64,000 nucleotides of DNA from an uncultured Sphingomonadales bacterium (GTDB lineage Bacteria > Pseudomonadota > Alphaproteobacteria > Sphingomonadales > Sphingomonadaceae). Numbering within the stretch: position 1 is the first letter of the stretch; each line of letters opens with the position of its first letter. Shown one piece after another: positions 13,976 through 18,585 of this stretch. The DNA lies in assembly GCA_903832325.1 (NCBI GenBank), contig CAILBC010000019.1, positions 1 through 64,000 of the forward strand. The letters run 5' to 3'. The notes beneath the pieces were generated by a model, which was not told where the DNA came from, made no database searches, and saw only the letters and a program-made list of their open reading frames with translations. A program made the translations under genes and the position numbers.

Positions 13976-14182
13976 ATGTTTCTGGATCTGCGTGATCAAT
14001 GGCCGCCGGTGCCGCCGCCTGCACCGCTGCCCGCATCGGGCGAGCCGCATCGGGGCACGCGCGGCGAACGCCTTGTCGGGCTGATTGTCGCGTGCAACCT
14101 GCTGCTGCTGTTTCTTGCGCCAATCGCCGGCAGCTCCGTGGCCCAGGCCATTGCCGCGCTGATCGCCGCGCTGCATCGCTGA
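13976..14182 (+). CDS. Small single-pass membrane protein
   Basis: 68 residues. The start is fixed by a strong AAGGAG site with 8-nt spacing. The N-terminal half is Pro-rich and soluble (RDQWPPVPPPAPLPASGEP). One hydrophobic helix follows (LVGLIVACNLLLLFLAPIAG) and the protein ends with a short amphipathic tail. I do not recognise the family. The ribosome-binding site and clean membrane segment support a real gene. Confidence 0.6.
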   Translation: MFLDLRDQWPPVPPPAPLPASGEPHRGTRGERLVGLIVACNLLLLFLAPIAGSSVAQAIAALIAALHR

Positions 14183-14211
14183 GGCGTTCCACCGCTTGGG
14201 CGTTCCACCGT

Positions 14212-14251
14212 CAAGGTTGGGCAACGTCAAGGCCGGGCAACGTTAAGGTCG
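14212..14251. repeat. 16-bp tandem repeats
   Basis: CAAGG(T/C)(T/C)GGGCAACGT occurs at 14212 and 14228, followed by a partial third copy at 14244. A shorter direct repeat, GGCGTTCCACCG, precedes it at 14183 and 14199. It lies between two genes on the plus strand. No function is evident. Confidence 0.7.
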
Positions 14252-14341
14252 GGGGTTTTTCGGCAAGCGCGTGAATACGGGTTCGTCGGCAGGTTTACGT
14301 CTTTCTGCACAGTGGTTCTGCACAGTGGAGGAACGAAAACC

Positions 14342-14716
14342 ATGAAGCCGACTTTGTATGCGACATCGATTGCGCTTGCTGCGATCACTCCGATGGCCGC
14401 GCAGGCGCATGCGGGCGCAGGCCCCGGCGTGTTTCGTGGCCCGGTCATGGGCCATGGTCCGGTCATTGGCCATGGTCCGGCAAGCGGTCCAATCAGGGGC
14501 CCGATCAATGGCACGATCATCAATCCGGGCACAGTGCATGGCACGATCATCAGCCCGGGCACGATCCACGGCACCGTGATCAACCCCGGCCCCGTGAACG
14601 GCACCGTGCTCAACCCCGGCCCCGTGAACGGTACCGTGCTCAACCCCGGCCCGGTGAAGGGTACCGTGATCGACCCCGGCACCGTCAACGGCACCGTGGT
14701 GCAGCCGCAGAGCTGA
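14342..14716 (+). CDS. Exported decapeptide-repeat protein
   Basis: 124 residues from a GGAGG-preceded ATG. A signal peptide (LYATSIALAAITPMAAQAHA) is followed by a mature part made almost wholly of about ten 10-residue repeats of the form (I/L)(N/S/D)PG(T/P)(V/I)(H/N/K)GT(V/I). The 30-bp units are more alike at 14580-14670 than elsewhere, which suggests recent expansion. The regular spacing suggests a beta-solenoid or other extended surface structure. There is no known domain and no cysteine. The next gene, a JmjC-type oxygenase, starts 29 bp downstream and is probably co-transcribed. Confidence 0.75.
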   Translation: MKPTLYATSIALAAITPMAAQAHAGAGPGVFRGPVMGHGPVIGHGPASGPIRGPINGTIINPGTVHGTIISPGTIHGTVINPGPVNGTVLNPGPVNGTVLNPGPVKGTVIDPGTVNGTVVQPQS

Positions 14717-14745
14717 TCCGGACCGATGCAGCAGGGAGGGCGATC

Positions 14746-15897
14746 ATTTTCAGCCCGGCAGATCTGATCGCCCCCCTGCCCTGGCAGGATTTTGTCGATC
14801 ACCATTGCGACCGGCAGGTGCTGCACGCGCCGGCCGGGCCCGATGCCGCGCGCACCGGGCTGTTCACCATGGCCGATTTCGACGCGCTGCTATCGCGCCC
14901 GGCGCTGCCGGCGAACACGCTGTTTGCGATCGATGCGCGGCGCAAACTGGGCCCGGCGGATTACAGCCTGGCCAATGGCGCGACAGACGTGCTGCGCGTG
15001 CTCGACTTGTTCGACGAAGGCGCAACCGTCGTCTTTCGTGAGGCCGACCGCCATCATCCGGGGCTGTGGCGGCTGACCCGCGCGTTTGAACGCGCGCTGG
15101 AGGCGCCAGCCTTTGCCAATATCTATTACGCCCCGGCGCAGGGCCAGTCGTTTCCGGCGCATTACGACGCGCTTGACGTGTTTGCGGTGCAATTGCTGGG
15201 GCACAAGACCTGGACGCTGTATCCGCGCATTGCGGCGCGGCCGCTGCGCCACGAACATTGCTATGGCGAAGCCGGCTTTGCCGCGGCCGATGCGGCCGAA
15301 CCGCCACAGGCGATCACGCTGGGGCCTGGCGATCTGCTCTATGTGCCGCGCGGCGTGCCACATCTGGTGGCGGCGGGCAGCGAACCATCGCTGCACATCA
15401 GCATTTCGGTCACCCCGTTTACCCGCCACGATCTGCTGCGCAGCCAGCTTGATGCGCTGGCCGCGCAAGCTGGCGATCACCGCCTGCCGATCCCGCCCGC
15501 GGGCGCGGCGGCTGACCCCACCCCGGCCACCCCGCTGACCCTGCCGGCCGGCGCCGATCTGGCGCGGCTGCGCCACACTGCGCTGCTGGCGCAAGTGCCC
15601 GTTGCCATCGATCAGCCGCTGCACGCGCGCGCGGCCGCCCGCACGCTCACCCCTGCCAGCCGGCTGATTGCCGACCGCACCGCGCCGTGGTTTCTCGACC
15701 GCGCGGGCGATCACTTGCGGCTGCTGGGCAACGGCCGCGCGCTGGGCTTTGCCCCCCAGGCCGCCGCCGCGCTGGATCTCGCGCTGTCGGGCACGGCCTT
15801 TCGTGTGGGCGATCTGCCCGGTCTGGATGACGATGAGGCGCGCCGCGACCTGGCCGGAACGCTGATGGCCAACGGGTTTGCAAAGACGGCGCCATAA
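14746..15897 (+). CDS. JmjC/cupin-8 domain protein (ribosomal-oxygenase-like hydroxylase)
   Basis: A 2-oxoglutarate/Fe(II) oxygenase related to YcfD/RoxA and MINA/NO66. The metal triad is visible: His and Asp in FPAHYDALDVFAVQL and the distal His in YVPRGVPHLVAAG. The core strand LLGHKTWTLYP is typical. The C-terminal half resembles the winged-helix or dimerisation region of these enzymes. Family-like text (FSPADLIAPLPWQDFVDHH) extends upstream of the first GTG at 14818, and a GGGAGG site at 14734-14739 lies before ATC/ATT codons at 14743/14746. I therefore place the start at 14746, a rare codon choice. The gene lies just after an Asn/Pro/His-rich repeat protein. Confidence 0.8.
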   Translation: MFSPADLIAPLPWQDFVDHHCDRQVLHAPAGPDAARTGLFTMADFDALLSRPALPANTLFAIDARRKLGPADYSLANGATDVLRVLDLFDEGATVVFREADRHHPGLWRLTRAFERALEAPAFANIYYAPAQGQSFPAHYDALDVFAVQLLGHKTWTLYPRIAARPLRHEHCYGEAGFAAADAAEPPQAITLGPGDLLYVPRGVPHLVAAGSEPSLHISISVTPFTRHDLLRSQLDALAAQAGDHRLPIPPAGAAADPTPATPLTLPAGADLARLRHTALLAQVPVAIDQPLHARAAARTLTPASRLIADRTAPWFLDRAGDHLRLLGNGRALGFAPQAAAALDLALSGTAFRVGDLPGLDDDEARRDLAGTLMANGFAKTAP

Positions 15898-18402: not shown

Positions 18403-18585
18403 GTGAATTTGATCAACCGCCTGCTGCACGATGAAACCGCCGCCACTGCGATCGAATATGGCCTGCTTGCCGCGCTGGTCAGCGTGTCGGCCATTGCCGC
18501 GATGGGATCGCTGGGCAACGCCCTGTCCAACACGTTCAACCGCGTATCGAACCAGATGGCCAGCGCGCAAAGCGGCAAGCTTTAA
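18403..18585 (+). CDS. Flp/Fap-type pilin
   Basis: 60 residues from a GTG with GGAG upstream. The Flp-type IVb prepilin signature is visible: a short basic leader, then DETAATAIEYGLLAALVSVS with the conserved Glu-Tyr pair, and a hydrophobic helix. The usual Gly at the cleavage site before ATAIEY is replaced by Ala. No tad or cpa assembly genes are adjacent, so this is an orphan pilin copy. It is followed at once by a double hairpin. Confidence 0.85.
   Translation: MNLINRLLHDETAATAIEYGLLAALVSVSAIAAMGSLGNALSNTFNRVSNQMASAQSGKL

Follow-up and report, generated by a model that had tools for sequence, protein, structure and literature searches.

An exported decapeptide-repeat protein as a candidate substrate of an adjacent JmjC oxygenase in a Sphingomonadaceae bacterium

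Introduction

JmjC enzymes hydroxylate Asp, Asn, His, Arg and Lys residues. To our knowledge, the substrates of most bacterial JmjC_2 proteins other than YcfD are not known.

In the available part of its description, YcfD (RoxA) is a bacterial JmjC arginyl hydroxylase of ribosomal protein L16 (PMC4295552). The factor inhibiting HIF (FIH) hydroxylates residues of ankyrin repeats and, according to the available part of that report, accepts Asn, Asp and His (PMC4543633). There are also precedents in which enzyme and target are encoded together. BipG, from biphenomycin biosynthesis, is a JmjC enzyme that hydroxylates a peptide precursor encoded in the same cluster as itself, as stated in the available part of PMC12707348. 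In the bufferins and related MNIO-modified precursors, the gene of a precursor with a Sec signal lies before the oxygenase gene and modification precedes export, according to the corresponding part of PMC12452194. Finally, JmjC_2 (PF08007) proteins with RRE-like domains are presented as bacterial homologues (about 30% identity) of eukaryotic proteins in RiPP-like contexts, and in the available part of that account neither repeat proteins nor Tat substrates nor porins are mentioned as neighbours of JmjC genes (PMC12710340).

Here we describe a gene pair in a stretch of 64,000 nucleotides, below called the window, from an uncultured Sphingomonadales bacterium (assembly GCA_903832325.1, contig CAILBC010000019.1). 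The first gene encodes P0001, an exported decapeptide-repeat protein, and the second P0002, a JmjC_2 oxygenase. P0002 shares its HxD...H motif and Lys with the histidyl hydroxylases NO66 and MINA53 (RIOX1/2), its best matches by profile and by fold; those enzymes act on ribosomal proteins, whereas P0002 is accessory and lies beside an exported repeat protein. YcfD is likewise a bacterial JmjC protein, but its sequence match to P0002 is much weaker than that of NO66 and MINA. FIH resembles the proposed enzyme in acting on repeat proteins, but its fold is only distantly similar to P0002 (TM 0.37-0.39) and exported bacterial proteins are not among its targets. The biphenomycin pathway differs in being a RiPP system with many other maturases and in its target, ornithine. 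The bufferin arrangement is like the present one in that P0001 has a Sec signal peptide (by eye) and is encoded before an oxygenase; it differs in using an MNIO with a partner protein and Cys-containing precursors, whereas P0002 is a JmjC_2 protein and P0001 has no Cys.

A pairing of a JmjC gene with a Tat-exported repeat protein or with a porin is not described among the literature matches listed, a search with subscription papers outside its scope, nor in the available parts of PMC6006756, PMC4295552, PMC12707348, PMC12710340, PMC4543633 and PMC12452194. The pairing points to a little-known chemical modification of proteins before export, and for two JmjC clades, as well as for P0002, a singleton, likely substrates can be read from the gene neighbourhood.

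The repeat protein P0001

The coordinates of the features are collected in Table 1. The earlier note had proposed an exported signal-peptide protein, and the 124-residue reading frame agrees with this, having a Sec-type signal peptide by eye (MKPTLYATSIALAAITPMAAQA) and the sequence GGAGGA 9 nt upstream. The note had also counted about ten decapeptide repeats. The repeats are there, but we find seven, preceded by a short GP-rich stretch that follows the signal peptide. In order, the units are PINGTIINPG, TVHGTIISPG, TIHGTVINPG, PVNGTVLNPG (twice), PVKGTVIDPG and TVNGTVVQPQ.

Table 1. Positions of the features of the locus in the window.
Feature	Position	Strand	Basis
Shine-Dalgarno-like GGAGGA, 9 nt 5' of P0001	14327..14332	+	direct sequence reading
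P0001, exported decapeptide-repeat protein, 124 aa	14342..14716	+	translation
Sec-type signal peptide of P0001, 22 aa	14342..14407	+	cleavage after AQA judged by eye
Seven 30-bp units of P0001, [TP][VI][NHK]GT[VI][ILV][NSDQ]P then G (last unit: Q)	14501..14710	+	
Shine-Dalgarno-like GGGAGGG, 5 nt before the ATT of P0002	14734..14740	+	sequence reading
P0002, JmjC_2 2-oxoglutarate oxygenase, NO66/MINA-like, 383 aa, probable ATT start	14746..15897	+	
JmjC_2 domain of P0002, residues 103-229, with H139, D141, H206 and K154	15052..15432	+	
Sensor histidine kinase (DUF4118, HisKA, HATPase_c), common accessory segment with P0001-P0002	16013..17566	+	
Response regulator (Response_reg, Trans_reg_C), common accessory segment with P0001-P0002	17548..18255	+	

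The repeat part scores 0.54 in period-10 self-identity, far above chance (2000 shuffles reach at most 0.30), and a degenerate two-unit pattern has six matches in the window, all within the P0001 gene (expected 0.00). Differences between units fall on codon positions 1, 2 and 3 as 73, 12 and 106, a spread that fits a protein-coding repeat in the P0001 frame, while the codon-position pattern of the units alone does not fix the strand, since one antisense frame is similar (synonymous 54 vs 50).

Each unit has two polar places. The first is occupied, in order, by N, H, H, N, N, K and N, and the second by N, S, N, N, N, D and Q. The claim that every unit offers an Asn or His at a fixed place thus holds for most units at the first place, but one unit has Lys there. 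The mature part of 102 residues contains a single Asp (1%), 8 Asn and 5 His, and the two fixed places hold all eight Asn and two of the five His.

No family matched P0001 among the Pfam, NCBIfam, PADLOC and PHROG models. A predicted single-sequence model shows a regular strand pattern, but with a mean pLDDT of 47 it says little.

The oxygenase P0002

The neighbouring gene had been assigned to the JmjC protein-hydroxylase class, and this assignment is confirmed. P0002 matches JmjC_2 (PF08007) with an E-value of 2.9e-25 and 88.7 bits, against a curated cut-off of 22. The iron triad H139-x-D141...H206 and K154, which we take to be the Lys of the 2OG site, are invariant in an alignment of 14 proteins and align to the NO66 residues. 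In a profile search with these 14 proteins the top matches are human NO66 and MINA53 (E about 1e-47; 4ccn E 4.7e-48), and YcfD is matched weakly, at about 1e-4 to 1e-5. The same ranking is obtained with P0002 alone as the query.

The predicted model of P0002 has a mean pLDDT of 76 and a pTM of 0.60. Its best fold match is NO66 (4ccn, E 4.6e-24, TM 0.56), and its identity to NO66/MINA is 19-24%. All 50 fold matches listed are JmjC-type entries, namely ribosomal-protein hydroxylases, FIH, JMJD5, JMJD7, a putative asparaginyl hydroxylase and YxbC. NO66/MINA-type enzymes have a helical dimerization domain and then a winged helix. In the P0002 model, residues 301-383 are strands followed by helices with block-mean pLDDT of 77-95, and most of residues 226-293 are below 50. 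P0002 has no match in PADLOC and matches four families of unknown function in PHROGs.

The earliest ATG, GTG or TTG in the frame of P0002 is the GTG at 14818. This start is disfavoured because it would remove conserved sequence, for instance the invariant F16. The best reading of the sequence is that translation most likely begins at the ATT at 14746, behind GGGAGGG. ATT start codons are rare, and such a start could keep P0002 scarce relative to its proposed substrate. The gap of 29 bp between the two genes given in the earlier note stands with the ATT start and not with the first usual start. Both genes are real.

Distribution of the pair and of its segment

P0001 has hardly any relatives. 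In 195 genomes of the genus three matches were found, its own genome and two weak low-complexity ones (an adhesin-like ORF and an Arg-rich ORF). Own genome aside, there were two weak matches in 296 genomes of the order and three in the plasmid search. The unit pattern was not found in the viral contigs searched. The candidates rejected as relatives, all of them weak, are giant adhesin-like ORFs, the Arg-rich ORF, a short stretch in genome G880, two autotransporters and a pentapeptide-repeat protein. The four genome loci with weak matches, each about 3.2 kb long, contain no JmjC gene.

At 1e-12, P0002 has matches in 6 of the 195 genus genomes including its own. The other five, at 28-35% identity, are not among the genomes with P0001 matches. 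The best-scoring JmjC relatives in 298 genomes of the family are also 28-35% identical, over long alignments, and a scan of genome contigs with P0002 alone confirmed no relative.

The exact pair is therefore an orphan, found in one genome only. The expectation that it would be conserved in other sphingomonads fails if taken literally, as among the 195 genus genomes a credible repeat protein is present only in its own. With a single genome, co-occurrence neither supports nor refutes the pair as such.

The surroundings of the pair were compared with those of relatives. In the nearest relative examined (genome G332, locus L261) the upstream helicase gene, presumably HrpB, is 80% identical. There, the polysaccharide deacetylase gene directly follows or precedes orf68, a small gene (window 13976-14182), with 23 bases between the match ends, and P0001, P0002, the kinase and the regulator are all missing between them. 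The four genes are absent from the stretches (7-15 kb) of six out of six relatives, where gene order varies and only L261 gives a clean junction. Of 41 relatives, the genome itself counted among them, 3 have the kinase at 1e-60 and 29 the helicase at 1e-100. Judged by this gene content, the segment with P0001, P0002, the kinase and the regulator is accessory.

Related JmjC genes beside Tat-exported repeat proteins

Directly upstream of the best JmjC relatives in the family we find small proteins with a Tat signal and tandem repeats of 16-25 residues, for instance TDSDTGAYADPVGQGRG. The JmjC clade beside such Tat-exported, Asp-rich repeat proteins is below called TD. Searching contigs of named genomes with alignment A1 gave 127 relatives, of which the best 80 (L164-L243) were scanned for a protein with a twin-arginine motif, a hydrophobic stretch and a mature part rich in Asp and in Gly or Ser, at most 1 kb from the JmjC gene. 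Such a protein is present at 69 of these best 80 loci and at 22 of the 25 TD-clade loci in the tree, two sets that are not independent, since they share contigs (e.g. L205 and L035) and A1 is mostly TD-clade. The same scan was negative at 40 porin-linked, 12 ROX-like and 15 other JmjC loci (0/67 together) and at 300 random places of the window (0/300). In 58 of the 69 positive loci, among the best 80 of 127, the repeat gene is upstream on the same strand, and the median gap is 51 bp.

The 69 loci from the best 80 of 127 include Hyphomonadaceae, Maricaulis, Brevundimonas, Erythrobacter-like bacteria, Nioella and Gammaproteobacteria. The gammaproteobacterial repeats differ, with units of 11 residues (GGEGTDASDQS) or 13 residues (ATDSDSSDQSGRS). 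From these sequences, the repeat unit appears to vary while the partnership persists. In the tree, the loci with a repeat-protein neighbour are L035-L038, L040-L044, L046-L048, L106-L111, L114, L117 and L121, from Alpha- and Gammaproteobacteria. Twelve of the repeat proteins were compared with Pfam and no model matched.

The eleven scan negatives among the 80 are L177, L185, L194, L196, L197, L210, L211, L215, L232, L233 and L238. In five of them (L177, L197, L210, L233, L238) fewer than 600 bases precede the JmjC gene, and repeats of the TD type are nonetheless visible at L185, L194, L197, L210 and L233.

A profile of the Asp-rich repeats matches 14 of the 298 family genomes, the same 14 that carry a TD-clade JmjC gene and no others, where 14 is the number among those placed, since weaker JmjC matches of the family are mostly outside the trees, and the 14 are not independent events, since they belong to only four genera. 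In two of the 14 (G186, G297) the repeat gene is elsewhere in the genome and not adjacent. In two of these four, genera g15 and g43, other species have no match to the repeat profile and only weak, unplaced JmjC matches (1.6e-4 to 4.5e-8). The profile has no match in the genome of the window.

Asp, Gly, Ser and Ala are present in the mature parts of all 69 proteins, and the median Asp content is 14%, with Asp content being itself a selection rule. The other residues considered are each absent from some proteins, His from 39, Lys from 57, Asn from 9, Pro from 10 and Arg from one. Among the residues that JmjC enzymes hydroxylate, the target in every one of these proteins could by composition be Asp or, nearly as well, Arg. 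The leader motif L-S/T-D-x-D-I before the Tat signal was considered as a general recognition sequence and rejected, as it is present in only 7 of the 69.

The pair in the window resembles these pairs in having an adjacent exported tandem-repeat protein, in its case with a period of 10. However, the TD proteins carry a twin-arginine signal and are Asp-rich, whereas P0001 has a Sec-type signal and 1% Asp, and the Tat scan beside P0002 is empty. The analogy is thus one of architecture and not of sequence, and the P0001 pair is a variant of the TD type and not a member of it.

Some further genes were seen at these loci. In L101, from the same genus, the genes of a Tat repeat protein of the TD type and of a JmjC protein are divergently oriented, and the assembly shows the JmjC gene broken into several frames. 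A PepSY_TM-like gene is present in 10 of the best 80 of 127 loci, mostly gammaproteobacterial (L173, L181, L209, L212, L214, L219, L227, L234, L241, L242), and TonB-receptor-like genes in 4 of the same 80. A link of these neighbours to iron handling is possible.

A second clade beside porin genes

In a second large clade, 21 of 40 loci have a porin gene at most 1 kb from the JmjC gene (L115, L122, L123, L126, L128, L130-L132, L134-L137, L139, L140, L142, L143, L145-L147, L151 and L153). The profile used was built from eight of these porins, which were confirmed as Porin_4. Near the other JmjC sets no porin was found (0/132), with none in the sets of 12, 15, 25 and 80 loci, the last being the best of 127. 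Sulfotransferase-type genes are near 7 of the 40 JmjC genes of this clade, and it is possible that the porins are both hydroxylated and sulfated.

Placement of P0002 among JmjC proteins

Two trees were calculated, one of 60 rows, which were our own selection, and one of 93 rows that omits L065, L102 and L120, each of more than 520 residues. "ROX-like" is our own label. In the 60-row tree the TD clade has branch support of 93/88, the porin-linked clade 96/96 and the ROX-like group 100/100. P0002 groups with L045, L049 and L054 (94/89), and these four rows are sister to TD (90/95), outside the ROX-like group. Neither a repeat-protein gene nor a porin gene lies beside the JmjC gene in L045, L049 or L054.

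The branch of P0002 is long, and the quick tree of 93 rows does not resolve its position. A clade that joins P0002 to TD is not rejected by the AU test (p-AU 0.421), and the same is true of one that joins it to the porin-linked rows (p-AU 0.183). The placement of P0002 is not firm.

Proposed mechanism and alternatives

We consider it probable that P0002 hydroxylates the adjacent P0001 before export, with Asn or His as the likely target. P0002 would work in the cytoplasm as an Fe(II)/2-oxoglutarate JmjC hydroxylase. Its dedicated substrate would be P0001, whose gene lies immediately before that of P0002 on the same strand. The enzyme would bind the P0001 precursor ahead of secretion or while it is under way, possibly by a putative winged-helix-like domain at the C-terminus of P0002, and hydroxylate the polar places that recur in the units, the beta-carbon of Asn or His being the likeliest site. 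The hydroxylated protein would then be exported by Sec. Beta-hydroxylation of Asn or His is the most economical guess given the composition of P0001 and the acceptance of Asn, Asp and His by FIH. What the modified P0001 does can be guessed at, metal binding or a cell-surface structure being candidates.

We infer the activity of P0002, its substrate, the modified residue and the timing before export from several lines. The genes are adjacent on the same strand, 29 bp apart if the start is ATT, the catalytic residues of P0002 are kept, and the whole segment is absent from L261. The TD and porin-linked clades are associated with exported proteins, and P0002 stands beside TD in the 60-row tree. 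The published precedents, in the parts available, point the same way (PMC12452194, PMC12707348). The idea of a substrate and its modifier as neighbours, raised in the earlier note, gains strong support at the level of the enzyme group (69 of the best 80 of 127 loci, 14 of 14 genomes, and porins at 21 of 40 loci) but not from the exact pair. The mechanism is well supported for the group and plausible for the orphan pair.

The two genes might instead be unrelated passengers of the accessory segment, with P0002 acting on another exported protein, for instance a porin whose gene lies at another locus. The existence of a porin-linked clade hints that enzymes of this kind can modify other exported proteins, the AU test does not reject a grouping of P0002 with that clade, and in two of the 14 genomes with a TD enzyme the repeat gene is not adjacent. 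We nevertheless regard this as unlikely, as P0002 directly adjoins the gene of an exported tandem-repeat protein, which is the usual arrangement in TD.

It is rather improbable that P0002 hydroxylates a ribosomal protein like YcfD, NO66 or MINA53 and that P0001 is a mere neighbour. Its closest solved structures are indeed the ribosomal histidyl hydroxylases NO66 and MINA, and no second JmjC_2 protein was found in the genome, so that another cellular substrate is possible. A ribosomal one is made less likely by the position of P0002 in a segment missing from relatives and outside the ROX-like group. Moreover, matches in only 6 of 195 genus genomes would be odd for a core function, and the related clades adjoin genes of exported proteins.

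Cupin folds include small-molecule enzymes, and the strand pattern of the P0001 model, uninformative as that model is, would suit an ordinary low-complexity surface or beta-solenoid protein needing no modification, but that P0002 is such an enzyme is very improbable given its uniformly JmjC-type fold matches, protein hydroxylases included, and the link of its relatives to exported proteins.

Returning to hydroxylation of P0001 by P0002, a wider proposal can be made tentatively, with somewhat less than even confidence. Bacterial NO66/MINA-like JmjC proteins may be a broad machinery that hydroxylates export-bound proteins, namely Tat-exported Asp-rich repeats and porins, the latter sometimes with sulfotransferases that perhaps act on the new hydroxyls. 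A Sec-exported decapeptide repeat with Asn and His would be a third type, reached by swapping the repeat. If so, a modification that is widespread in Proteobacteria, the hydroxylation of secreted repeat proteins and porins, would so far have gone unrecognised, and arrays of hydroxylated residues could equip envelope proteins for metal binding or for some other special task. The repeat proteins, which are small and exported, lend themselves to expression, and PVNGTVLNPG would, if the reading is true, be a convenient test substrate.

Other features of the segment

A scan for promoters and terminators gave no signal above chance. Just 5' of the P0001 gene there are short direct repeats, with units of 16 bp and 13 bp, at 14209-14253 and 14303-14328. 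Between the regulator and deacetylase genes the window contains a Flp/Fap pilin gene (Pfam Flp_Fap, 18403-18585). At L248 a similar short ORF lies upstream of a related kinase.
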